Positions 17,016 through 29,910 of a stretch of 36,046 nt of DNA are shown here, piece after piece (within the stretch, counting starts at the first letter, position 1; every line of letters begins with the position of its first letter). Made by a program: the position numbers and the translations under genes. The notes beneath the pieces are model-generated. The model was not told the origin of the DNA. It saw only the letters and a program-made list of their open reading frames with translations, and did not search any database. This stretch comes from an uncultured Dehalococcoidia bacterium (GTDB lineage Bacteria; Chloroflexota; Dehalococcoidia; Dehalococcoidales; Fen-1064), in assembly GCA_903916765.1 (NCBI GenBank), contig CAIWXV010000027.1, positions 1 through 36,046 of the forward strand. The letters run 5' to 3'.

Positions 17016-17400
17016 TTAGTGTGCTTGTTCCAGCGCAAAAACGATGTCGAAGCTAACGCTATCACCCTGAATCTCATTACCTACCGTGGTGGGGATATTC
17101 CGAACAGCCGTCAGATTGAGCCTGCTATTAGCTGTCATTGTAGTTATCCGGGCTTGCGTAATTTAGCAACGGTTGATAGTAATAAGCAATACCGCCGGCG
17201 CCGGGGGCAACATTATCCATATCGAGTGCTTCAGTTGTTTGCCCTCTACCGACTTTCAGGTCAAGAACTCCGCCAGCGAAATCGCCCTGGGCGCCATTCC
17301 ACCCATCTCCGAAGTATGCCCAGGCACCACCACTGAAGAGAAGCCCCATCAGTAAAACCACTATTGCTAAACCTAATATTTTCTTCGCTCTGCTGTTCAT
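17016..17400 (-). pseudogene. TasA/CalY-like secreted protein gene with a frameshift
   Basis: The 90-residue ORF starts MNSRAKKILGLAIVVLLMGLLFSGGAWAYF, a signal peptide, and then GGVLDLKVGRGQTTEALDM and NVAPGAGG, typical of the TasA/CalY (camelysin) family of exported, sometimes fibre-forming proteins. It stops at YASPDNYNDS. In another frame the sequence continues ITTMTANSRLNLTAVRN and GDSVSFDIVFALEQAH, ending in TAA at 17018-17016; this is the family's usual C-terminal strand pattern. So a one-base insertion (or two-base loss) near 17150 splits a gene of about 128 codons. It could be an assembly error or a real mutation. Confidence 0.7.
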
Positions 17401-17519
17401 TTTTTGTTCCTGTATCTACAGAATAATGTTTCGGTGATAAACTAAATATTAAACAACAGGGTAACACTCTAAACATTTCATAAATATTTCCATTGATTTG
17501 GAGGTTTCCCTCCCCACCC

Positions 17520-17548
17520 GAATATTCATCGCTGCACTTAGAATGACA
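17520..17548. repeat. Possible dispersed-repeat relic upstream of elp3
   Basis: GAATATTCATCGCTGCACTTAGAATGACA resembles the GATTCTTCGCTGCGCTCAGAATGACA-type motif common in dispersed noncoding repeats. It falls inside the N-terminal extension of the ORF-track elp3 frame, which is a reason to place the elp3 start further downstream. Confidence 0.35.
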
Positions 17549-17605
17549 ATATCAGGACTCGGGGATAGCACTGCGGTACCAGATTTTGATACACTATTGG
17601 GAGTT

Positions 17606-19009
17606 ATGGGAAAACCACAGATTACAATGAGAAAATCCACGCGCACTATTTCCGGCGTGACACCGGTTGCCGTAATGACTGCACCGATGCCCTGTCCCGG
17701 CAGGTGTGTCTATTGCCCGACTTATTCCGAGACGCCTCAGAGCTACACACCGGAATCGCCGGCGGTACTGAGAGGCAAAGAGTGCCAGTATGATGCCGTC
17801 AAGCAGGTAAAGATACGGATAGCAGGTCTGGCAGATATGGGTCACCCCATAGATAAAATCGAGCTCATCATTATGGGCGGGACCTTCCTTGCTACACCGA
17901 AAGACTACCAATACCAATTCGTCAAAGAATGCTTTGATGCTATGAATGAAGCAACATCTGTCTCTCTGGAAGAAGCCAAAAAAATCAACGAGACGGCGGC
18001 TTGCCGTTGTGTCGGACTATGTATCGAGACCAGACCCGATTTCTGCGGCGAGGAAGAAGTAAAAAGGATGCTGGAATTCGGCACAACCCGAGTGGAAATC
18101 GGCGTGCAAACACTGGATGACGATATCTATAATATGGTAAGAAGAGGGCATCTTATCGAGGATGTAAGTAGAGCTACGGCGCTTCTCAGAAAGTACGGCT
18201 TCAAGGTACACTACCACTGGATGCCAGGGCTACCAGGTTCGACACCGGAGCACGACTTGGCAATGTCCCGACAGCTATTCGACGACCCTCGTTTCCGTCC
18301 CGACGGTCTGAAAATATACCCGACGGTGGTAGTCTCCGGCACAGAACTGGGAAAATGGTATCAGGAAGGGCGCTATAAGCCTTATGATAACAATACCATG
18401 CTCAACCTGGTAGCAGATATCAAAGCCATTGTTCCGAAATACGTCCGCATCTCCCGTGTTTTGCGCGATATTCCAGTCAAATTCATCGTTGCCGGCTATA
18501 AAGAATCACTGCGCGGTCCTGTCAAAAAAACGATGCAGGCGAAAGGTATGGAGTGCCACTGTATCCGTTGCCGCGAGTACGGGCACAGGGTAGCAGACGG
18601 CTGGCAAATCGGCGAACCGATATTGAAAAGGATGGATTATCCAGCTTCCGGCGGTACAGAGATTTTTCTGTCTTTTGAGGATGAGAAAGAAACCCTATTC
18701 GGGCTTTTAAGACTGCGCATCCAGTCTGAGTCTATATTAAAAGTATCAGAGCAAAGCAATATCAACCCTACCGTCATCATCAGGGAACTGCATATTTATG
18801 GACCGGAAGTGCCGCTCAAGTACCAGAGCCCCAATGCCGTCCAGCACAAAGGTCTGGGGAAAGCATTACTCAGAGAAGCGGAACGTATTGCCAAAGAGGA
18901 GTTCAAGTCTTCACAGATGCTGATTTTGAGCGGCGTGGGAGCCAGGGAATACTATCGTACCGAATTCGGCTATCATCTGGCAGGTGATTATATGGTGAAA
19001 AGATTATAG
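17606..19009 (+). CDS. elp3: Elp3-type tRNA uridine-34 carboxymethyl-modification enzyme (radical SAM/GNAT)
   Basis: About 467 residues. Elp3 uses a radical-SAM [4Fe-4S] cluster and acetyl-CoA to put a carboxymethyl group on C5 of wobble uridine in tRNA (cm5U34). It opens with TISGVTPVAVMTAPMPCPGRC; the cluster cysteines are CPGRCVYC. Then come MGGTFLATPKDYQY, the LCIETRPDF and VEIGVQTLDDDIY strands, and YPTVVVSGTELGKWY. The zinc-binding linker is ECHCIRCREYGHR. The C-terminal acetyltransferase-like part ends QHKGLGKALLREAERIA, SGVGAREYYRTEFGYH and GDYMVKRL. The ORF track's TTG 17498 start runs through repeat-like sequence; ATG 17606 or ATG 17627 (MRKSTRTISGVTPV) fits the family better, though neither has a good SD. 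The Dehalococcoides mccartyi homologue has a published crystal structure, so the family is known in this class. Confidence 0.95.
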   Translation: MGKPQITMRKSTRTISGVTPVAVMTAPMPCPGRCVYCPTYSETPQSYTPESPAVLRGKECQYDAVKQVKIRIAGLADMGHPIDKIELIIMGGTFLATPKDYQYQFVKECFDAMNEATSVSLEEAKKINETAACRCVGLCIETRPDFCGEEEVKRMLEFGTTRVEIGVQTLDDDIYNMVRRGHLIEDVSRATALLRKYGFKVHYHWMPGLPGSTPEHDLAMSRQLFDDPRFRPDGLKIYPTVVVSGTELGKWYQEGRYKPYDNNTMLNLVADIKAIVPKYVRISRVLRDIPVKFIVAGYKESLRGPVKKTMQAKGMECHCIRCREYGHRVADGWQIGEPILKRMDYPASGGTEIFLSFEDEKETLFGLLRLRIQSESILKVSEQSNINPTVIIRELHIYGPEVPLKYQSPNAVQHKGLGKALLREAERIAKEEFKSSQMLILSGVGAREYYRTEFGYHLAGDYMVKRL

Positions 19010-19261: not shown

Positions 19262-19289
19262 TTGACAAATCGTGGTTAAGTGTTATAAT
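19262..19289 (+). promoter_or_regulatory. Strong promoter of the surface-protein locus
   Basis: Consensus TTGACA (19262-19267), 16-bp spacer, consensus TATAAT (19284-19289) and an extended TG at 19281-19282. The predicted start near 19296 gives a leader of about 28 bases to the small ORF at 19324. This is among the best promoter matches in the window. Confidence 0.85.
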
Positions 19290-19323
19290 AAGAGTTAGAT
19301 TATGTAATCAAGGAGGTGATGGT

Positions 19324-19395
19324 ATGTCAAGAACCCGCAAGGGAGACAGCTTAAACGCTGAGGCTAAAGTAAAAGAAAAATTATCAACCAATTAA
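19324..19395 (+). CDS. 23-residue small ORF ahead of the surface-protein gene
   Basis: ATG 19324 opens a frame of 23 codons, MSRTRKGDSLNAEAKVKEKL..., ending in TAA at 19393, too short for the ORF track. AAGGAGGTGAT (19310-19320) is an almost perfect anti-16S match, 3-7 bases before the ATG depending on alignment, and the strong promoter sits just upstream. The product is hydrophilic and basic with a short helix, and has no signal peptide. It could be a real small protein, a leader peptide whose translation sets expression of the next gene, or a chance frame; the signals argue against chance. I recognise no family. Confidence 0.6.
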   Translation: MSRTRKGDSLNAEAKVKEKLSTN

Positions 19396-19464
19396 TCATG
19401 GTCTCCGTGAAGAAGCTTTTTGGCACGGGGGCTTAACGAATTTAAGAAGGAGTATTTAAAGTCG

Positions 19465-21816
19465 ATGAAAAGCAAAATGTTTAGAATTCTCGGTGTAGTA
19501 GCGGCAGTTTCGATGCTGGCAGCAACACTGACGGCAATCCCTGCATTAGCTATTAGTTCCTCAGGGCTGACTATTGTCAATAAAACTATTAGCACTGCTA
19601 CTACATATACCCTTACTTTCAATCTTGGCGCAACCTTACCGCTTGGCGCTGCTGCAATCACGGTGGGCTTCCCCACTGGAACCACTGGACTTGGCGCTGC
19701 CACTGCTACCCTTGAAGCAGGCCCCGGTCTTGGTACCGGTGCTGTCCCTGTAGCCGCAGTTGTTATTGCCAACCCCGCCGGTACCACTAACCTGACAGTG
19801 ACTACGGTTGCCAATATGGGCGCCGGAGCCATCGTCCAGTTAATTTTCACCGGTATTATCAATCCACCCACAGTGGGTGATTTCACCGTCACCTTGAAGA
19901 CCGCTACTGAAACCACCGCGATTACAGCCGGTACCTTCACCACCATTGTTCCGGTACCGCCAATTTTACCGGGTGTCGCTTCTGTTTACAATAGCGCGGG
20001 TGTTTTAATGAGCACAAGCAATTCCTTAACAACCGCTCTTGGTGCAGTTCTTGCCGGCGGAAGCATTACATTAACTCCCGGCCTCTATAACACCGCTTTC
20101 GTTGGTAATGCGCTCTCCTGTACTATCAAGGGTACCACCACTGCAGCTGATGTTATCCTTACATCAATTGGCGCGTGGGCTATGAATGGTGCCACTGTCG
20201 TTATCGACAAAGTGACCATTGATGGTTCAACTGGTGTTCTCACTATGACCAACGCTACTGCAGGGACTGTGAGTAATTCCGTCCTGAAGGGCGCTGTATT
20301 AACCATGGCCGGTGCAGGCACCAACACAGTTGATACCTGTGCTTTCACAGTTTTAACTGTTGCAAACGGCTTCGCCAACGGAGCTGCTGCCACTGTTAAG
20401 ACCTCTACCTTCAGCGTCGCCGGTACCGGTGTCGGTATCGCTAACGGCGCTAACGTTACTGTCAGCGGCTGCACGTTCACCGGCGTTACCGCTGCAGGCA
20501 TTGGTATTGCTCTGACTGCTGGTGCCGCTAACGTTATCGGAACCAGCACTTTCACCGGTTTAACCACTGCTCTGGCAGTCACCGCTCCTGCCGCGGTTGC
20601 CTTTAATGGCAATACCGTATCTACCTGCGGCGTCACCTTAGGAGCCTCCGCTATCGCCGTAACCAGCACAGCCGGATTATCAGTAACCAACTGTAAAATC
20701 ACCGGCAGTTTGGCTAACATTATTAATGTAGCCGCTAACGACAATCTAGTCGTTGTCATGTTCAATGAATTCAGCGGCAACGTTTCCAGCGCAACCAATG
20801 CCGGTGGCGTTGGATTCTTGAATGTCACCCACAACTATTGGGGAGGAGCAGCCGCTCCTACTTCAACCGCGACTGTTTCCTATGCTCTTCCTCTTGGCAA
20901 AGCCGCTACCGCTAGTAGTTTCGCCGCCGCACTCACTTTGAATGCAACTGCAACTGCCCGCGTAAACATCACGGCTTCGACCGCCTCTACGCTGCTTGGT
21001 GCTGGTATCTTAACCGGAATCCCTGTGGGCGTAGCTCTACCAACAACTGTTACAGCGGTCAACTACTATGATGTGTTCGGTGTTGCTACCACCGCTGCAA
21101 CCATTCAATTCTACGGCACTACCACTGCTCCAATCACCGCTAGTTCTGCGGTCTATTTCTACAACACAACTTTCGGCAGATGGGATCCCGCTGCTTATAC
21201 CGTTAACATCTTTGGCAATTACGTAGAAGTAACGGTTGGTGCTACTCCTACTGCCGCTCAGTTCGTTGGGTTACCGTTCGCTCTGGTTACCATTAACCCG
21301 ACCGCTCCTGCAGCTCCTCCTGTTGCCGTTATAGCCCAGTATCCTTTGAATGGTGCGGTGGCCATACCCATCGATGTCACCTTCACCTGGCCCGCAGTAG
21401 CCGGTGCAACCAGCTACGACTTCGTACTGGCTCAAGAACTCGGCCAGATCGATAAATTCGCCATTCCGGATTACGGCAGCACAACTCCTACCAATGCTGT
21501 AAAGGCTTCTACGGATATGAAGTACAATACTCAATATTGGTGGAGAGTCAGATCAGTCAATTCAATCGGTAGTAGTGCTTGGACTGTGGGCACCTTCACG
21601 ACTGCTAAGGAACCAGCGGCTGTAGTCACACCGACGACAACCATCATTGTTCCGACCCAGCCTGCTGTAACACCTACCGTCATCATTACGACATCTGCAC
21701 CTGTCGAACAAACGCCCGTCATACCTTCTTACCTGCTCTGGGCTGTAATTGCAGTCGGTGCAGTACTCGTCATCGTCGTAATTGTCCTGATTGTCAGAAC
21801 CCGCAGAATTAGCTAA
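19465..21816 (+). CDS. Large secreted, membrane-anchored beta-helix surface protein
   Basis: About 783 residues, very rich in Ala, Thr, Val and Gly. ATG 19465 (MKSKMFRILGVVAAVSMLAATL) begins a clear signal peptide ending near PALAIS; the ORF track's TTG 19420 adds an unlikely extension. Domains in order: a beta-sandwich-like region (about 30-155) ending GIINPPTVGDFTVTLKT; a right-handed parallel beta-helix of short repeats (about 165-470, for example VSGCTFTGVTAAGIGI), closed by the pectin-lyase-type cap NVTHNYWGG; a further beta region; a fibronectin III-like domain (FTWPAVAGATSYDFVLAQ ... QYWWRVRSVNSIGSSAW); a Pro/Thr/Val linker; and a C-terminal membrane helix (LLWAVIAVGAVLVIVVIVLIV) with RTRRIS inside. 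It is probably an abundant cell-surface or S-layer-like protein held by its C-terminus. No catalytic residues are evident. Confidence 0.88.
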   Translation: MKSKMFRILGVVAAVSMLAATLTAIPALAISSSGLTIVNKTISTATTYTLTFNLGATLPLGAAAITVGFPTGTTGLGAATATLEAGPGLGTGAVPVAAVVIANPAGTTNLTVTTVANMGAGAIVQLIFTGIINPPTVGDFTVTLKTATETTAITAGTFTTIVPVPPILPGVASVYNSAGVLMSTSNSLTTALGAVLAGGSITLTPGLYNTAFVGNALSCTIKGTTTAADVILTSIGAWAMNGATVVIDKVTIDGSTGVLTMTNATAGTVSNSVLKGAVLTMAGAGTNTVDTCAFTVLTVANGFANGAAATVKTSTFSVAGTGVGIANGANVTVSGCTFTGVTAAGIGIALTAGAANVIGTSTFTGLTTALAVTAPAAVAFNGNTVSTCGVTLGASAIAVTSTAGLSVTNCKITGSLANIINVAANDNLVVVMFNEFSGNVSSATNAGGVGFLNVTHNYWGGAAAPTSTATVSYALPLGKAATASSFAAALTLNATATARVNITASTASTLLGAGILTGIPVGVALPTTVTAVNYYDVFGVATTAATIQFYGTTTAPITASSAVYFYNTTFGRWDPAAYTVNIFGNYVEVTVGATPTAAQFVGLPFALVTINPTAPAAPPVAVIAQYPLNGAVAIPIDVTFTWPAVAGATSYDFVLAQELGQIDKFAIPDYGSTTPTNAVKASTDMKYNTQYWWRVRSVNSIGSSAWTVGTFTTAKEPAAVVTPTTTIIVPTQPAVTPTVIITTSAPVEQTPVIPSYLLWAVIAVGAVLVIVVIVLIVRTRRIS

Positions 21817-21854: not shown

Positions 21855-21890
21855 AAGGGAGCCCCGATAGAATCGGGGCTCCCTTCTTTT
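21855..21890 (+). terminator. Terminator of the surface-protein gene
   Basis: A perfect 14-bp stem AAGGGAGCCCCGAT / ATCGGGGCTCCCTT with an AGA loop, followed by CTTTTTG. It lies 38 bases past the stop. Confidence 0.93.
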
Positions 21891-21982: not shown

Positions 21983-22012
21983 TTAACAATTCCGTCATAT
22001 TATAGGTATAAT
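21983..22012 (+). promoter_or_regulatory. Promoter of the two-component operon
   Basis: TTAACA (21983-21988) and a consensus TATAAT (22007-22012) with an 18-bp spacer. The leader to ATG 22032 would be short (about 13 bases) and carries the SD AGGGAG. Confidence 0.7.
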
Positions 22013-22031: not shown

Positions 22032-22730
22032 ATGGTGTCTAGGAAGATTTTGGTAGTCGATGACGATGTAAAAACGGTAGAGCTGGTCAAGCTCTATCTG
22101 GATCGTGACGGTTACCATGTTTTAACCGCATACGATGGGAACGAAGCACTGGAACTTGCCCGTCAGAGCCACCCCGACCTGATAGTGCTCGACCTGATGT
22201 TACCCGGATGTGACGGGTTGGAAATCTGCCATCAATTAAAGAACGAATCCGATGTTCCCATCATCATGCTCACTGCCCGAACCACGGAAGATGACAAACT
22301 GACAGGATTGGACAGTGGTGCTGATGACTATATGACCAAACCATTCAGCCCCAGAGAACTTGCCGCCAGGGTACGCGCCGTCCTCAGAAGACTACCCGAA
22401 GAGGCACTTCAGCGTGGTCCGGAGGAAATCAAATGTAGTGATCTGGCGATTAATTTCCCCAAGCGTGAGGCCTCAATAAAAGGCAAAGCCCTACAACTTA
22501 CTCCGGCAGAATTCAAATTATTGGGAGTGTTAGCCAAGGAACCAGGGCGAGTATTCAGCCGTGAACAGCTCATAAGTATGGTTTTTGGATATGATTTCGA
22601 AGGTTTTGACCGTACGATAGACGTTCATATCCTCAATCTGCGCAGAAAGTTGGAACCTGACCCCAACCATCCGAAATATATAAAGACTGTTTATGGAACC
22701 GGCTACAAATTTGCAGGAAGTGCGGAATGA
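22032..22730 (+). CDS. OmpR/PhoB-family response regulator
   Basis: 232 residues. The receiver domain has the acidic pocket VVDDD (10-12), the phosphate acceptor Asp54 in [10 protein letters not shown], the switch Thr81 (IIMLTAR) and Lys103 in [13 protein letters not shown]. After a short linker ([13 protein letters not shown]) the C-terminal winged-helix DNA-binding domain reads [36 protein letters not shown], then [16 protein letters not shown] and the wing [11 protein letters not shown]. It is a phosphorylation-controlled transcription factor, co-translated with its kinase (ATGA overlap). Its position between two surface-protein loci suggests, but does not prove, control of surface genes. 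The stimulus and targets are unknown. Confidence 0.96.
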
Positions 22731-24109
22731 TAAACAAACTAAGATTAATATCGCATAAACTGCAATTCCGTCTCTTGCTGTCCTTCCTTATCGTCATAAT
22801 TGTAGCCATCGGCGCTATCTTGATTTTTGTGGTGAGCAATACCGGTGGTGAGCTTCAGCAGTTCGACCAGCGTGCCGCACAAGGACGTGACTTACGCATC
22901 GAATTCATGCTATCGAATTATTATGCCATCAGCGGAAACTGGAATGGTGTGCAATCATTTGTGGAAGCCCTGGCCACTTTAGAAGAACAGCATATCATTG
23001 TCACCAACGACTCGGGTATCATTGTCGCTAATTCCGAGGGTACCTCGCTAGGCAAACAATACCATCCCACCGCACCCAGCATACCGTTATTTGCACCGGC
23101 AGCACTGTCGACTTTACCTTCACAGAGAAGCTCCGTAGGAACTCTCTATATCAACCCTGAGAATAACCCATTCACTCTTACCAAGGGTCTGGCGATAACA
23201 ATAAACAGCTTCCTTCTCTGGGGAGGCTTGATTGCAATTGTCCTGGCACTTTTATTGACATTCATATTATCCCGTAGAATCTTAGCCCCCGTTCGTGCAC
23301 TCACAACGACTGCACGGCAATTAGGGCAAGGCAATTTTTCCAAGAGGGTAACCGTCAAAGATAAAGGTGAGATAGGAGAACTGGCTCAATCCTTCAACAC
23401 AATGGCTGATGACCTCGAAAGGGCAGAAAAGTTGAGACGGAATTTAATTGCAGACACTGCTCATGAGCTCAGAACACCGCTATCTAATCTGAAAGGTTAC
23501 CTCGAAGCGATACGTGATGACGTTGTAAAACCGGATGCCGCTACCATTAATTCGCTATATGAAGAGGTTACACTATTAACACGTCTGGTTGATGACTTAC
23601 AGGAACTAGCCCTTGCAGAAGCAAGCGAATTAAAGCTCATCAGACAAGCGGAGGACATTCCCCGAATCATCAATCAGGTAACAACTGCCGCTCAAGCTCA
23701 AGCTAATACCAAGGAAATAAGTTTACAAGCTAATCTACCTGATACTCTCCCGTTATGCGACATCGATGCACAACGAATTGCACAAGTCATACGCAACCTC
23801 GTCGACAATGCTATCACACACACACCACATGGGGGTAAGATTACCGTAACTGCCAAAGAATCCGGTAACTGGGTAGAAGTAGCCGTGACAGATAATGGCG
23901 AAGGTATTCCGGCAGAAGAACTTCAGAACATTTTTGAGCGGTTCTATCGTGTCGACCGGTCACGGTCTCGCCTAACAGGCGGAAGCGGATTAGGACTTAC
24001 CATTGCCAAACGGCTCGTGGAAGCACACGGCGGCAGAATAGCTGTCAGCAGCGAACTGGGGAAAGGAAGCTGTTTTACCTTCACTATCCCGATAGTCAAA
24101 GCTCAGTGA
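22727..24109 (+). CDS. Membrane sensor histidine kinase
   Basis: 460 residues; its ATG overlaps the regulator's stop by 4 bases. A first membrane helix at about 15-37 ([21 protein letters not shown]) and a second at about 163-183 ([19 protein letters not shown]) enclose a sensor region of about 125 residues outside the membrane, with a PAS-like [22 protein letters not shown] linker follows ([17 protein letters not shown]...[12 protein letters not shown]). The phosphorylated His246 lies in the H-box [15 protein letters not shown]. The ATP-binding boxes are NLVDNAITH (N), VTDNGEGIP (G1), [10 protein letters not shown] (F) and GGSGLGLTI (G2). It is a complete BaeS/PhoR-type kinase. The sensed signal cannot be read from the sequence. 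Confidence 0.96.
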
Positions 24110-24156: not shown

Positions 24157-24336
24157 CAAACACTGTTAGTACCGGAAGCTACCACAACACCAACTCAACA
24201 ACCCGTAAATGCCCATATAAATATTCCGGAATGGGTAATGTACGGCGGTATAGGTTTATTAAGAACAATTTTGATAACGCTAGTAATACTCGTGATAAAC
24301 ATGATAATAATGATAAGAAACAATCGCCCTTGGTAA
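24157..24336 (+). pseudogene. 3' relic of a membrane-anchored surface protein gene
   Basis: The frame opened after a TAA at 24154 and closed by TAA at 24334-24336 has no start codon at its head but reads as a C-terminal surface anchor: VPEATTTPTQQPVNAHI (Pro/Thr linker), then IPEWVMYGGIGLL and ITLVILVINMIIMI (membrane helix), then RNNRPW. This is the same linker-helix-basic-tail design as the end of the large surface protein at 21640-21816. The rest of the gene is missing, so it is a deletion relic. It occupies most of the gap between the kinase and the metallo-hydrolase. Confidence 0.6.
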
Positions 24337-24350
24337 AGCTGTGTGAGGGT

Positions 24351-24986
24351 TTACTTATAATTGAGCAGAACGACCTGTAGAGAAAGAGGCAGATTATTTT
24401 TATTCACTAATAGTTTAGGTTGGGGCACTGATTCTTTAACTCCCATCTCTTTGAGGAAACGGTCGACTGTTGCCAGTTCTTTTTTCAGGACCTCGGTTTT
24501 GTAATGCATTGGGATGACGATTTTCGGCTCTAAACGGCGGACCACCTCAGCGGCTTGAGTCGCATCAATCGTAGAAACACCACCCACCGGCAACATCAGC
24601 ACATCGACCGAATCGATAGCCGCTACCTGTTCGGCAGTGAGAGGGTGTCCCAGATCACCCATATGACAGACCGACAGGTCATCAATCTCAATTACATAAA
24701 CGGTATTCTTCCCTCTCTGGGCGCCCTTTTCATTATCATGATAAGTCTGCACCCCGATAGTTAGGATACCACCAATCTCATACTCACCGGGCCCCCTGAT
24801 AACAATCGGGTCATCACCCACACCTTTAACATAAGAATGACCGTCATGCGAATGACTGACGGTAACGATTTGAGGCGTGACTTTACCCAGAGTATAACCA
24901 AGTTCAGGGGAGAAAGGGTCAGTTAAAATAGTAGCTTGTTTACCTTTGAGCTTGAAACAGGAATGTCCGAGCCAAGTAATCTCCAT
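24351..24986 (-). CDS. MBL-fold metal-dependent hydrolase (UPF0173-like)
   Basis: A 211-residue metallo-beta-lactamase-fold protein of the compact Lactamase_B_3/UPF0173 type. It starts MEITWLGHSCFKLKGKQATI and LTDPFSPELGY, then the metal motif SHSHDGHSY, GPGEYEIGGI, CHMGDLGHPLT, DVLMLPVGGVSTID, and the final metal histidine PMHYKT. The usual HxHxDH motif reads H-S-H-D-G-H, so the fifth position Asp is replaced by Gly; the three histidines remain. Relatives are often annotated as L-ascorbate-6-phosphate lactonase-like, but the substrate here is unknown. There is no SD before the ATG and the -10 box lies only 6 bases away, so the mRNA may be leaderless. Single-gene unit. Confidence 0.88.
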   Translation of the reverse strand: MEITWLGHSCFKLKGKQATILTDPFSPELGYTLGKVTPQIVTVSHSHDGHSYVKGVGDDPIVIRGPGEYEIGGILTIGVQTYHDNEKGAQRGKNTVYVIEIDDLSVCHMGDLGHPLTAEQVAAIDSVDVLMLPVGGVSTIDATQAAEVVRRLEPKIVIPMHYKTEVLKKELATVDRFLKEMGVKESVPQPKLLVNKNNLPLSLQVVLLNYK

Positions 24987-25078: not shown

Positions 25079-25105
25079 TTAGCAGTCGGTAGGTAAGAGT
25101 GCTAA
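25079..25105 (+). promoter_or_regulatory. CIRCE operator (HrcA binding site)
   Basis: TTAGCAGTC, nine bases, then GAGTGCTAA. The consensus is TTAGCACTC-N9-GAGTGCTAA, so the right arm is perfect and the left arm has one change (C to G at its seventh base). The position just after the promoter and before hrcA is that of a classical HrcA autoregulation site. Confidence 0.93.
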
Positions 25106-25107
25106 AT

Positions 25108-26157
25108 ATGAATAAAACACTTTCGCCAAGAACAGATTTCATCTTAAAATCCATTGTCGAGCAATATATCGCTCGGGCATTGCCCGTGCCGTCTCAGAGC
25201 ATCATGGATAACTATCGAATGGATGTCTCTTCCGCCACCATTCGTAACGAGATGATGCATTTGAAACAGGACGGCTACATCCTACAACCTCACACCTCAG
25301 CCGGTAGTGTCCCCTCGGATAATGGCTACCGCTATTATGTGGAAACACTGACCGATGTCCGCTTACCCATAAACCAACAGAGAATGATTAACCATCTTTT
25401 CCATCAAGTTGAGACCCGACTGGAAGAGTGGGCAAGACTAACTGCTACACTGCTGGCTAATCTGTCCCAAAACATGGCGATTGTTACCACTGCCAGAGCA
25501 TCTAATTGCATCTTTAAACATCTGGAACTGGTCAGCATACAGGATTCCACAGCATTGGTTGTTCTGGTTCTTGAAGGTGCTATCGTCAGGCAACAATTAG
25601 CTACCTTCGAGCAGGTGATATCGCAAACAGACTTGACGACCATCAGTAATAAACTGAACTTTGCCTTTGACGGATTGAGCAAACCTCAGATTATGGGGAA
25701 AAACATAGAATTGACCGAACTCGAAAAAAGCATCGCCGACTGTGTACTGAATATTATGAAATCCGAAGACGAAACAGGGCGTGAAGGACCTTATCTGGAT
25801 GGAATGCAATTTATTTTTAACCAACCGGAGTTCTCAAGCCCTCATCAGGCCGTGACACTATTAGAACTCACCGAACATAAAAACTTGATGAGCGTCATTA
25901 TGGCAAACGACATGGCGGGAGATGGAGTACATGTCTTCATCGGTAAAGAAAACAGAGCGGAGGCTATTCAAAATTACAGCCTCGTTGTCAGCCGATATGG
26001 TTTGCCAGGGGAAGCCATCGGTTGTATTGCCATCTTAGGACCCACTCGTATGCATTACGTCCGTAGTATTGCCTCCGTAGATTACCTGTCGGAAGTACTA
26101 ACCGGACTTGTTGCATGGTTACATGGCAGAAAAACAACGCCGGAATCAAAAAACTAG
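25108..26157 (+). CDS. hrcA: Heat-inducible transcription repressor HrcA
   Basis: 349 residues. HrcA binds CIRCE and represses chaperone genes until unfolded protein titrates GroEL. The N-terminal winged helix reads SPRTDFILKSIVEQYIARALPVPS, then VSSATIRNEMMHLKQDGYI and QPHTSAGSVPSDNGYRYYV, the family's hallmark. The GAF-like core includes IVTTARASNCIFKHLELV and the C-terminal IGCIAILGPTRMHYVRSIASVDYLS. The ORF track's GTG 25099 lies inside the CIRCE right arm; ATG 25108 is the better start. Because that arm also covers the ribosome-binding area (AAGAG), the RNA hairpin of CIRCE could reduce HrcA translation. It is the first gene of the heat-shock operon. Confidence 0.96.
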   Translation: MNKTLSPRTDFILKSIVEQYIARALPVPSQSIMDNYRMDVSSATIRNEMMHLKQDGYILQPHTSAGSVPSDNGYRYYVETLTDVRLPINQQRMINHLFHQVETRLEEWARLTATLLANLSQNMAIVTTARASNCIFKHLELVSIQDSTALVVLVLEGAIVRQQLATFEQVISQTDLTTISNKLNFAFDGLSKPQIMGKNIELTELEKSIADCVLNIMKSEDETGREGPYLDGMQFIFNQPEFSSPHQAVTLLELTEHKNLMSVIMANDMAGDGVHVFIGKENRAEAIQNYSLVVSRYGLPGEAIGCIAILGPTRMHYVRSIASVDYLSEVLTGLVAWLHGRKTTPESKN

Positions 26158-26224
26158 AGCCGAACATCACTGAAGAAATCCGAAGAAAGCAAAATCGGGA
26201 ATCACTACGCTTCAATAAGGAGAG

Positions 26225-26791
26225 ATGTTAAAAAGCATGATACCGAGAGAACCGGAAAATCAGGATAATAATGAGTCCGAAATCGGAAATAATCCGGCAT
26301 GTGAATCAAGCCAAGATATTGAGAAAGTCCTGACAGAAGCACAACAAAAAGCCCAGGATTATCTGGATAGCTGGAAAAGGGCTCAAGCGGATTTTATCAA
26401 CTACAAACGTCGTACAGAGCAGGAAAGATTGGAGATGGGGAAATACGCCAATACCCAGCTTATCCTTAGCCTTTTGCCGATTCTAGATGATTTCGACAGG
26501 GCTTTTGATTCGACCACACCACAGCTGGAGAAAACAGAATGGATAGAAGGTATAAAACTTATCGAACGCAAATTAAAGTCAATACTGGAGATACAGGGGG
26601 TATCCCCGATTAAAGCAGTCGGAGAGCCTTTCGATCCCAATCTGCACGAAGCTGTGATGCACATTAAAGGAGAAGAAGGGAAGGTAATACAGGAATTGCG
26701 TAAAGGCTACAACCTATATGATAAAGTTATCCGCCCGAGTCATGTAGCCGTCGGCAACGGAGAGCTGGTAGAAGAACAAACTGACGAATAA
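26225..26791 (+). CDS. grpE: Nucleotide exchange factor GrpE
   Basis: 188 residues. GrpE releases ADP from DnaK. A disordered acidic N-terminus is followed by the long dimerising helix (KVLTEAQQKAQDYLDSWKRAQADFINYKRR) and the C-terminal beta domain with the family signature GEPFDPNLHEAVM and RKGYNLYDKVIRPSHVAV. The start is uncertain: AAGGAG (26217-26222) is only 2 bases from ATG 26225 and 14 from ATG 26237, so neither spacing is ideal. It lies 67 bases after hrcA and 48 before dnaK in the same operon. Confidence 0.96.
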   Translation: MLKSMIPREPENQDNNESEIGNNPACESSQDIEKVLTEAQQKAQDYLDSWKRAQADFINYKRRTEQERLEMGKYANTQLILSLLPILDDFDRAFDSTTPQLEKTEWIEGIKLIERKLKSILEIQGVSPIKAVGEPFDPNLHEAVMHIKGEEGKVIQELRKGYNLYDKVIRPSHVAVGNGELVEEQTDE

Positions 26792-26839
26792 ATTTCACTC
26801 GATAAACATAGTACAGAGATATAGATAGGAGGTATTTAA

Positions 26840-28738
26840 ATGGGAAGAACAGTTGGTATTGACCTGGGAACGACATTCAGCGAAGTGGCAGTGATGCAGG
26901 GTGGCGAACCGGTGGTAATTCCTTCGGCCGAAGGCAGCCACTTGTTCCCATCGATAGTCGCAATAAATAAGGGGGGAGAACGGCTGGTCGGGCAGATAGC
27001 CAGACGACAGGCGATTGTGAACCCTGAGAATACGATTTACAACATCAAGCGATTCATGGGACGCAAATGGGGTGAACCCCTAGGAAGGGAACTCCCGGTA
27101 GAAGAGGATGCCCGCCGCAAAACCTATAAAGTAACGCGCGGCTCTAACAACGAAGCAAAAGTCTTAATGGGTGGGAAAGAATATAGCCCTCCGGAAATAT
27201 CGGCAATGATTCTGCAAAAGCTGAAGACCGATGCCGAGGCATATCTAGGTGATAAAGTCACCGATGCCGTCATCACTGTCCCGGCATACTTCAATGATGC
27301 TCAACGTCAGGCGACTAAAGATGCCGGTACCATCGCAGGACTAAATGTCCTCAGAATTATTAACGAGCCGACTGCGGCCGCACTGGCGTATGGTTTGGAT
27401 AAGAAAAAAGAGGAAACCATTGCTGTCTACGATCTCGGCGGTGGGACATTCGATGTCTCCATTCTGGAGATTGGAGGGGGAACTTTCCAGGTCAAGTCAA
27501 CCGCCGGAGATACTCATCTGGGCGGTGAGGATTTCGACCAGAGAATTATGGACTGGCTTAGTGAAGAATTTAAACGTGACCAAGGTATCGACCTGAGACA
27601 AGATAGAATGGCACTACAGAGACTCAAGGAAGCAGCAGAAAAAGCTAAGATAGAGCTTACTACCGTTCAGCAAACCGATATTAACCTGCCATTTATCACG
27701 GCTGATGCCAGTGGTCCCAAACACCTTAACATTGCCCTCAGCCGCGCCAAGCTGGAACAATTAGTAATGGATTTGGTGGAAAAAACTCTTGAGCCGTGCA
27801 AACAGGCAGTAAATGATGCTGGTAAAACCACCGCTCAAATCGATGAGGTTATCCTCGTTGGCGGACAGACCAGAATGCCGCTCGTCCAGCAAAAAGTGAA
27901 GCAGTTCTTCGGTAAGGAACCGAATAAAGGGGTCAACCCCGATGAAGTAGTAGCCATAGGCGCTGCAATTCAAGCCGGGGTGCTCAAAGGTGAAGTCAAG
28001 GAAGTCTTACTGCTGGACGTTACGCCTCTTACACTCGGTATCGAGACTCTGGGTGGAGTGATGACACCGCTTATTACACGCAATACCACTATTCCCACAT
28101 CCAAGAGCCAGATTTTTAGCACCGCCACAGATAGTCAACCCAGCGTGGAAATTCATGTCATGCAGGGTGAAAGGCAAATGGCAAACGATAACCGGACCCT
28201 GGGACGGTTTATGCTGGATGGTATTTTGCCAGCACCGCGAGGATTGCCTCAGATCGAGGTTACATTCGATATTGATGCCAATGGCATTTTGAGTGTAAAA
28301 GCACATGATAAGGGCACCGGTAAGGAACAAAAAATCACTATCACTGCCTCCAGCGGCTTGAGCAAGGACGAGATAGAGAAGATGCGGAAGGAAGGTGAAG
28401 TTCACGCCTCTGAAGATGCCAAGCGTAAAGAAGAGGTGGAAACCCGCAATACCGCCGACAATATGGCTTACATGGCGGAAAAAACCTTGCGCGATAACAA
28501 AGATAAGATTCCCGATGAGATGAATAAAGAAATTGAAGGCAAAGTCGCTGCAGTACGGGAGTCTCTAAAGGGAAGCGATATCGAAGCCGTCAAACGAGCC
28601 TCTCAGGAATTGAATGAAGCTATGCAAAAAGTTGGCGCAGAAATCTACAAACAACAACAACCACCGCCGGGAAATCAGCCACCACCCGGTGGCAAGAAAG
28701 ACGATGGTACCGTAGATGGCGAATTCCACGAGGTGTAG
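26840..28738 (+). CDS. dnaK: Chaperone protein DnaK (Hsp70)
   Basis: A 632-residue Hsp70. The ATPase domain starts [18 protein letters not shown] (the common GTTNS reads GTTFS), with [28 protein letters not shown] and [13 protein letters not shown] in the expected order. The linker [16 protein letters not shown] leads to the substrate domain ([23 protein letters not shown], then GIPPAPRG-type here [24 protein letters not shown]). The helical lid follows, then a Gln/Pro/Gly-rich tail and the EFHEV end, close to the EEVD-like ends of bacterial DnaK. GGAGG lies 7 bases before the ATG. Works with GrpE and DnaJ encoded on either side. Confidence 0.98.
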
Positions 28739-28770
28739 ACGGTAAATTACACAAGGTATAAAATAAAGAA

Positions 28771-28799
28771 TGCTGGAGAGGTTAATACCCCCTCCAGCA
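28771..28799 (+). terminator. Hairpin between dnaK and dnaJ (possible partial terminator)
   Basis: TGCTGGAG / CTCCAGCA is a perfect 8-bp stem, extended by GG/CC after one A-C mismatch. It is followed by AGACTTTCAGCTTCTTTC, which is pyrimidine-rich but lacks a T-run. It may attenuate read-through into dnaJ or protect the dnaK mRNA end. Confidence 0.5.
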
Positions 28800-28839
28800 A
28801 GACTTTCAGCTTCTTTCAGATAATGGGGTTTAGGTTCGT

Positions 28840-29910
28840 ATGACGGAAAAACGCGATTACTACGAGATTTTAGGGATTGATAGGAATGCTACCGATGAAG
28901 ACATCAAAAAGGCATTCCGCAAACTCGCTTTTAAATATCACCCTGACCACAATCATGACGATGGTGCCTCAGATAAGTTCAAGGAATTGAATGAGGCTTA
29001 CCAGGTACTATGCGACACTGAGAAGCGTTCTGCTTACGACCGATTCGGGCATAATGGCGGGGCAAACATCTTTGGACGGGAATCGGATGGATTCGACTTC
29101 GGTTTCGGGGATATCTTTGAAGCCTTCTTCGGCGGTAGCGCCAGCGGCGCACGCCAGGCTCCTGAAAAAGGAGCGTCATTACAATACAATGTAAGTATCA
29201 CGTTGAAGGAAGCCGCTTTCGGTTGTGATAAAGAAATTACCCTCACCCGCACCGAGCATTGCTCCGAATGTCAGGGTACACGTAGTAAACCAGGGAGTCA
29301 ACCAGAGCGTTGCCCCAATTGTAATGGTTCAGGGCAAATCAAACGGGTACAATCGAGTGTTTTCGGACGTTTCACCAATATTACCACCTGTCCGAACTGC
29401 CATGGCGAAGGTAGAATTATCACCGAACCATGTCCCAAATGCCACGGGAGCGGGAGGGAGAAACGTCAGCGCACTATCTCCGTCAAAATCCCTGCCGGTG
29501 TAAATGATAGCAATCAAATCCGCGTCCGCGGTGAAGGTGATACCGGCTCCAGGGGTGGACCATCGGGTGATCTATTCGTTAGTTTGTCAGTTGAGAAACA
29601 TGAGTTCTTCCAACGAGAAGGCTACGATATTCTCTACAAGTTACCTATCAATTTCGCTCAAGCAGCATTGGGGGTAGAGGTTTCCATTCCCACACTGGAA
29701 GGCGATACCAAGCTAAAAGTTCCTGCCGGCTGTCAGAGCGGTGCTACTTTCCAGCTCAAAAACAAAGGGGTTCAACATTTGCAGGAGCGTGGCCGTGGCG
29801 ACCAAATAATTACTGTTTCTGTAACGACACCTGAATCCCTGACTAAAGAACAAAAATTATTATTTGAGAAATTGGCAGAGAGTCTGGGACATCACAAGAA
29901 GAAAGGGTAA
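28840..29910 (+). CDS. dnaJ: Chaperone protein DnaJ (Hsp40)
   Basis: 356 residues, the DnaK co-chaperone that stimulates its ATPase. The J domain runs from [20 protein letters not shown] with the essential HPD in [11 protein letters not shown]. The Gly/Phe-rich region includes [17 protein letters not shown]. The zinc domain has four repeats: [32 protein letters not shown] and [10 protein letters not shown]; the first has Arg where CxxCxGxG usually ends in Gly. The C-terminal peptide-binding and dimerisation part follows ([18 protein letters not shown], then [18 protein letters not shown]). It is a full-length type I DnaJ. Last gene of the HrcA operon, 101 bases after dnaK. Confidence 0.97.

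Follow-up and report, generated by a model that had tools for sequence, protein, structure and literature searches.

A beta-helix protein with a shared membrane anchor and a conserved mRNA leader: a candidate S-layer-type envelope protein of an uncultured member of the Dehalococcoidales

Membrane-anchored S-layer proteins of archaea have a C-terminal transmembrane (TM) segment or a PGF-CTERM and a Thr-rich stalk. Envelope construction in the bacterial order Dehalococcoidales is poorly known, and a coat protein has been named there only tentatively, in Dehalococcoides, the pollutant-eating relative of the organism treated here. In D. mccartyi, DET1407 was described by proteomics as a putative S-layer protein only (PMC5102406), and the S-layer biomarker of strain 195 is a BNR/Asp-box protein (PMC6646388). 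Peptidoglycan was lost before the Dehalococcoidales radiated; Tepidiforma, which also belongs to the class Dehalococcoidia, has it (PMC10284905). At the level of mRNA, the STAB-SD of Bacillus cry3A is a described system: a 30S subunit bound at a distal Shine-Dalgarno (SD) sequence blocks RNase J1 (PMC4113751).

The DNA analyzed here (the window) is a 36,046-nt stretch of contig CAIWXV010000027.1 (assembly GCA_903916765.1) from an uncultured Dehalococcoidia bacterium, whose genome is a metagenome-assembled genome (MAG) of 149 contigs that is 96.6% complete. The gene under study occupies a position termed slot A (Table 1). Its product is considered likely to be the main S-layer-type envelope protein of a peptidoglycan-less Dehalococcoidales bacterium, and it is tied to the putative Dehalococcoides coat protein by position, anchor and leader.

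Table 1. Coordinates of the slot-A gene, its domains, its leader and its neighbors in the window
Feature	Position	Strand	Basis or remark
Radical SAM protein, upstream neighbor of slot A in several genomes	17498..19009	+	
Sigma-70-type promoter, TTGACA-16 bp-TATAAT, 12/12, TG ahead of -10	19262..19289	+	sequence
Conserved structured mRNA leader, match to covariance model R1	19308..19467	+	E 2.7e-21, 90.2 bits; window is one of 29 model rows
Distal SD AAGGAGGTGAT, 145 nt before start codon	19310..19320	+	GGAGGTG invariant in 29 leaders
23-codon ORF after distal SD (MSRTRKGDSLNAEAKVKEKLSTN)	19324..19395	+	not kept as a peptide in relatives
Hairpin A, CCC-GCAA-GGG, GNRA tetraloop	19334..19343	+	loops of relatives: GCAA, GAAA, GTAA, GAGA, GCGA, GGAA
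Hairpin C, GTCTCCGTG/CACGGGGGC, 19401-19409 paired with 19424-19432	19401..19432	+	covarying 10-bp helix in 29 leaders
Proximal RBS AAGAAGGAG and conserved AAAGTCG directly before start	19444..19464	+	GTCG next to ATG in nearly all leaders
Beta-helix envelope protein, slot A, 783 aa	19465..21816	+	ORF, Pfam, homologue alignment, AlphaFold2
Signal peptide, residues 1-29	19465..19551	+	hydrophobicity; MKxK..RILGV.. motif common to homologues
N-terminal beta-sandwich, residues ~35-165	19567..19959	+	AlphaFold2, moderate confidence
Right-handed beta-helix and NYWGG cap, residues ~170-475	19972..20889	+	Pfam, AlphaFold2
Second beta-sandwich, residues ~500-612	20962..21300	+	AlphaFold2; Foldseek matches to tandem FN3 pairs
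FN3-like domain, residues ~622-716, opens conserved anchor module	21328..21612	+	Pfam, anchor alignment, AlphaFold2, match to D. mccartyi protein
Pro/Thr/Val stalk, residues 717-752	21613..21720	+	sequence; pLDDT low at 727-749
TM helix and RTRRIS tail, residues 754-783	21724..21813	+	AlphaFold2, hydrophobicity; near-invariant order-wide
Intrinsic terminator, 14-bp stem then CTTTTT	21855..21885	+	sequence
Response regulator and histidine kinase, between slot A and slot-B relic	22032..24109	+	
3' relic of slot-B BNR envelope gene, TM end MYGGIGLLRTILITLVILVINMIIMIRNNRPW	24160..24336	+	DNA identity
Lactamase_B_3 (LacB) protein, conserved downstream marker of locus	24351..24986	-	
hrcA-grpE-dnaK-dnaJ, conserved envelope-locus flank	25099..29910	+	

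Domain architecture and homologues

The slot-A ORF opens with an ATG at 19465 and closes with a stop codon at 21814-21816. Hydrophobic windows at the N-terminus covered residues 4-32, and the strongest ones in the protein fell at residues 754-781; secretion to the surface is thus predicted from the signal peptide and the C-terminal TM helix (sequence, hydrophobicity). The Pfam family Beta_helix (PF13229) was matched by residues 305-427 (E = 9e-9; 35.6 bits vs. a cut-off of 25.9). AlphaFold2 was supplied with a 22-row alignment and returned a model with a mean pLDDT of 77.4, in which the means of 10-residue blocks were mostly 85-96 across residues 170-440; a model from the single sequence (pLDDT 38.7) was discarded. 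Foldseek matched this fold to the beta-helix of a GH87 alpha-1,3-glucanase (the top PDB fold), to tailspikes and to FN3 pairs, all with low whole-chain TM-scores, and a sequence search of the PDB with the 783-aa protein gave nothing significant. Ala, Gly, Thr, Ser and Val together make up 61% of the residues, acidic residues 2.6% and Lys plus Arg 2.8%; several homologues are much more acidic (Asp plus Glu up to 18%, vs. 2.6% here).

The original prediction had proposed a signal peptide, a beta-sandwich, a short-repeat beta-helix with an NYWGG motif, an FN3-like domain, a Pro/Thr linker, a TM helix and an Ala/Thr/Gly/Val-rich composition. These elements were recovered, the signal peptide by hydrophobicity and the homologue motif and the beta-helix by both PF13229 and the confident part of the AlphaFold2 model, and an additional sandwich was found between the helix and the FN3-like domain. 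NYWGG lies at residues 457-461, with N457 and G460 invariant among eight homologues. The domain order had been called unusual; it is instead the local norm, as eight proteins, the window protein counted among them, are colinear from end to end.

Of the 156 Dehalococcoidales genomes searched, 128 had a match, in most cases to the C-terminal module, which occurs also in other families of the class Dehalococcoidia. The remaining carriers of this module are mostly proteins of about 1000 aa, many with BNR-type ectodomains. A scan of viral contigs returned only anchor matches, on seven contigs.

The module itself (FN3-stalk-TM-RTRR) is present in the window protein and in most genomes of the order, and its FN3-stalk-TM part is 34% identical (E = 5e-19) to that of the BNR protein of D. 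mccartyi 195 (G077, a genome with 19 reductive-dehalogenase matches). That BNR protein fits DET1407, an assignment made by locus and BNR type. The slot beside LacB-hrcA-grpE-dnaK is common to the window gene and the DET1407-type gene, and the two types (the latter also represented by Q3Z6N3) are alike in slot, style of signal peptide, anchor and mRNA leader. They differ in the ectodomain, which is BNR/propeller-like and about 850 aa long in the DET1407 type, whereas that of the window protein comprises a beta-sandwich and a beta-helix in about 600 aa. Because the window protein gave no BNR match, only Beta_helix in its place, it is regarded as a variant rather than a plain member of the DET1407 family. 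A published S-layer peptide, AGIIDVPATADDATK, had no exact match in the Dehalococcoides proteins searched; one of them has the similar AGIIAGPSTATGTATK.

Envelope slots and exchange of ectodomains

In relatives, the same neighbors frame two envelope slots. Slot A holds a protein with either a beta-helix (G006, G010, G012, G030, G040) or a BNR or BNR-like ectodomain (G042, G003, G044, G027); slot B, which adjoins LacB, holds a BNR protein, and a BNR protein adjoins LacB-hrcA-grpE-dnaK in G021, G057 and G077. In a same-genus genome (L044 in G001) the slot-B gene is open; the stretch of the window at slot B aligned to its 3' end over 242 nt with 81% identity, and the alignment ran past the stop codon of that gene. 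Positions 24160-24336 read the slot-B C-terminal end in one frame, which is broken upstream. This identity indicates that the slot-B gene of the window organism is lost, with a 3' relic left behind. Elsewhere in the locus, a 90-aa ORF at 17128-17400 (- strand), about 60 residues of which match the Pfam family camelysin (Peptidase_M73), is possibly a truncated surface-protein gene, and a near-consensus promoter (TTAACA-18-TATAAT, 11/12) lies at 21983-22012, directly before the response regulator gene (22032-22730).

A tree was built from 35 anchor modules. The window anchor clustered with those of two same-genus genomes, one attached to a beta-helix (G004) and one to a BNR-like ectodomain (G003), with support of 100/98. 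Slot-B anchors formed one group. The starred branches of the tree force at least four changes of ectodomain type, and AU tests rejected a single origin both of beta-helix anchors (p = 0.00012) and of BNR anchors (p = 2e-7). Since the anchors group by genus and not by ectodomain, the ectodomains appear to have been exchanged repeatedly: judged from this tree, the anchor tracks the organism, unlike the ectodomain. The exchange presumably took place by recombination. The locus would accordingly be modular, with leader, signal peptide and anchor kept and the ectodomain swapped (a beta-helix in the window protein, a BNR propeller-like domain in D. mccartyi), such that the outer domain of the coat could be replaced, module-wise, at one fixed site.

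A similar tree would be obtained if the two ectodomain types were ancient paralogues that had been differentially lost, their 3' ends homogenized by gene conversion, with no recent exchange. Paralogues do coexist, as additional beta-helix genes are found elsewhere in G004 and on further contigs of G013 and G030. However, both types share slot, neighbors and leader while carrying genus-specific anchors, and gene conversion of this kind is mechanistically near to exchange in any case. The paralogue explanation is therefore rated as possible but doubtful, and exchange of ectodomains on a resident anchor is preferred.

The mRNA leader

A structured leader and, within it, a short SD-preceded ORF lie directly upstream of the slot-A gene (19308-19467 and 19324-19395); both had been overlooked in the original prediction. 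The distal SD, which we take to be the full complement of the 3' end of 16S rRNA (anti-SD), is situated about 14-20 nt downstream of the predicted transcription start. Across the order, slot-A leaders are conserved regardless of the ectodomain that follows, and they share one plan: AAGGAGGTGRTG about 130-200 nt before the start codon, a CCC-GNRA-GGG hairpin, a second hairpin (GTCTCCAT...ATGGAGAC), an RBS, and AAAGGTCG joined to the ATG. Hairpin C was found by RNAalifold from 29 leaders, and for eight of the 10 base pairs at least one sequence has both partners substituted. Its cells were paired in 91.2% of cases, vs. 86.0% in shuffled alignments and 37-61% when the helix was slid; its covariation score was 0.336 vs. 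0.231, and none of 500 shuffles reached it. The hairpin is also present in the minimum-free-energy (MFE) fold of the window leader, the MFE itself being unremarkable (z = -1.1). The alignment was assembled from copies selected by motif, which favors conservation of both the SD and hairpin A. Neither hairpin-C covariation nor the matches beyond the training set depend on this selection in the same way. A further hairpin (B), following hairpin A, had a mean z of -1.3 against mononucleotide shuffles; it was suggestive in many copies but not all, and it is not claimed.

Model R1 was used to scan genomes for the leader. A single match was obtained in the window genome at E <= 0.01, and one in each of the three Dehalococcoides genomes. 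Matches outside the training set were found in G010 and, in a neighboring genus, in G080 and G082, the latter two directly before slot-A-type genes. In a class-wide sample, the leader was detected in 34 genomes of the order and, weakly, in four outside it; it is usually present as a single copy, and a few genomes have two or three. For 31 of 46 copies, the same contig encodes the anchor module downstream, or the protein where the gene is truncated. Ten of the remaining copies were inspected, and nine lead into a similar ORF with a signal peptide that runs off the contig end, so that 40 of the 41 copies examined precede a slot-A-type envelope gene. In L219 (~2731-2970; G039), the leader is followed by a masked gap at the place expected for the envelope gene.

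Rfam scans of the window leader returned no family at the gathering score or at a relaxed E <= 5, and those of the D. mccartyi leader returned only an implausible match to SCARNA7 (18 bits vs. a cut-off of 65). These scans and the R1 distribution indicate that the leader is a previously uncatalogued element that is nearly restricted to the Dehalococcoidales. As in STAB-SD, a full-length SD sequence stands in the 5' UTR of a gene with features of high expression, far from the true start; compared to the cry3A element, the window leader adds two hairpins, one conserved with a GNRA loop and one covarying, and it is found order-wide on one type of gene. By this analogy, the leader probably keeps the slot-A mRNA abundant in a STAB-SD-like manner. 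A 30S subunit docked on the distal full-length SD would block 5'-3' decay and thereby maintain an abundant mRNA; for such stabilization, the cell would need mRNA decay of the RNase J type.

Some of these features would also suit attenuation by a leader peptide or a riboswitch that senses a ligand. An ATG is found 5 nt past the distal GGTG in about half of the leaders, where it is preceded by the SD, so that the distal SD may serve to initiate a short ORF, and hairpin C covaries; further, PMC5102406 mentions riboswitches upstream of tceA and of the S-layer gene, citing Rowe 2015. However, in homologous leaders the reading frame of the short ORF differs or is missing, its length and sequence are variable, and a start codon is absent from some copies. 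A conserved leader peptide was rejected because the peptide varies in this way while the RNA (the GNRA loop classes and the covarying helix) is conserved. Neither is there a credible Rfam match, and the proposal of a further leader ahead of the dehalogenase gene tceA was discarded, as the single R1 match in D. mccartyi 195 lies at the S-layer-type gene. A sensing or attenuating function is accordingly thought unlikely, and stabilization of the mRNA is the preferred function of the leader, which offers one testable RNA element for strong expression of the coat gene.

Metagenome assemblies are frequently broken at the slot-A gene. Many contigs end just before it or within it (L166, L167, L232-L239, L241), perhaps by strain variation. 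The leader model could serve as a marker for finding the coat gene across Dehalococcoidales genomes, whose metagenome contigs often break inside the gene.

Role in the envelope

The slot-A protein had originally been put forward as a candidate for the S-layer or main envelope protein, and this candidacy was strengthened by the agreement of four independent results: the DET1407-type slot, the shared style of signal peptide and C-terminal anchor, the shared leader, and the absence of PF00905. The last of these, the transpeptidase family of penicillin-binding proteins and the one family searched, had no match in any of 13 genomes (that of the window organism and 12 relatives), whereas 10 of 14 controls were positive. 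The accompanying statement that the class lacks peptidoglycan held for the order Dehalococcoidales, but not for the class (Tepidiforma, PMC10284905). The strong promoter and the terminator that had been noted were also located; the promoter agrees with consensus at 12 of 12 positions and the terminator stem has 14 pairs. Most of the homologues examined have a near-consensus TTGACA..TATAAT promoter upstream as well, and the codon usage of the slot-A gene (0.776) is comparable to that of rpoB/C and dnaK.

We infer the surface location, packing and abundance of the protein, like the mechanism of its leader, from these data. The protein would be secreted via its signal peptide and held in the cytoplasmic membrane by the single C-terminal helix with its short basic inner tail. 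Raised on the Pro/Thr stalk, the beta-helix and the FN3/sandwich domains would project outward, and neighboring ectodomains would pack into a coat that replaces the sacculus. Archaeal membrane-anchored S-layer proteins are similar in having a secreted ectodomain, a Thr/Pro-rich stalk, a C-terminal anchor and a murein-free cell; the window protein is, however, bacterial and has different domains, and the likeness is one of architecture.

Alternatively, the gene at this locus might encode a minor surface protein, such as an adhesin or receptor, with another protein forming the coat. Adhesins and phage tailspikes often contain beta-helices and FN3 domains, and two more proteins of the genome, encoded on contigs C74 (where the contig end cuts the gene) and C133, have domains like the C-terminal ones; moreover, because the genome is an incomplete MAG, another envelope protein could be missing from view. 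Against this, the gene occupies slot A behind a dedicated leader that occurs once in the genome, stands before the BNR S-layer-type gene in D. mccartyi, and had no R1 match at the genes on C74 and C133. The promoter and the housekeeping-like codon usage also speak, indirectly, against a minor role. A minor role was thus deemed quite improbable, and the protein is retained as the likely main component of the coat.

An enzymatic function was considered as well. The ectodomain fold resembles that of the right-handed beta-helix proteins of the NosD/pectate-lyase type (PF13229, PF05048); the window protein differs in having no conserved charged catalytic residues and in being tethered by a C-terminal TM helix. 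Among the 301 residues of the beta-helix at 180-480, there are six acidic residues, six Lys, one His and no Arg, and the columns that are invariant among homologues are Gly, Tyr, Ala, Asn and Pro; neither the alignment nor the composition revealed a conserved charged catalytic set in the helix. Identity with the copper-binding NosD was rejected, as both profile scores fell under the curated cut-offs (PF05048, 20.4 vs. 23.6 bits; TIGR04247, 10.6 vs. 300). The search for homologues yielded none with an enzymatic role, including any demonstrated away from the surface. A membrane-tethered, carbohydrate-active enzyme of the pectate-lyase, NosD or GH beta-helix kind, which the GH87 fold match and the weak, sub-cut-off NosD match would favor, is very improbable given the nearly uncharged helix, its invariant columns and the unrelated BNR ectodomain that sits on homologous anchors.

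Taken with the exchange of ectodomains, the leader leads us to favor, with some reserve, a reading in which the coat gene of the Dehalococcoidales is under a dedicated cis-acting RNA and in which leader plus anchor constitute a fixed cassette for swapped, unrelated ectodomains. If so, the coat could be replaced without altering either its expression or its anchoring. As a separate observation, the C74 protein (L055, 1725-3035; G000) has an N-terminal domain that appears cohesin-like by eye, followed by two FN3-like domains and a Pro/Thr linker.
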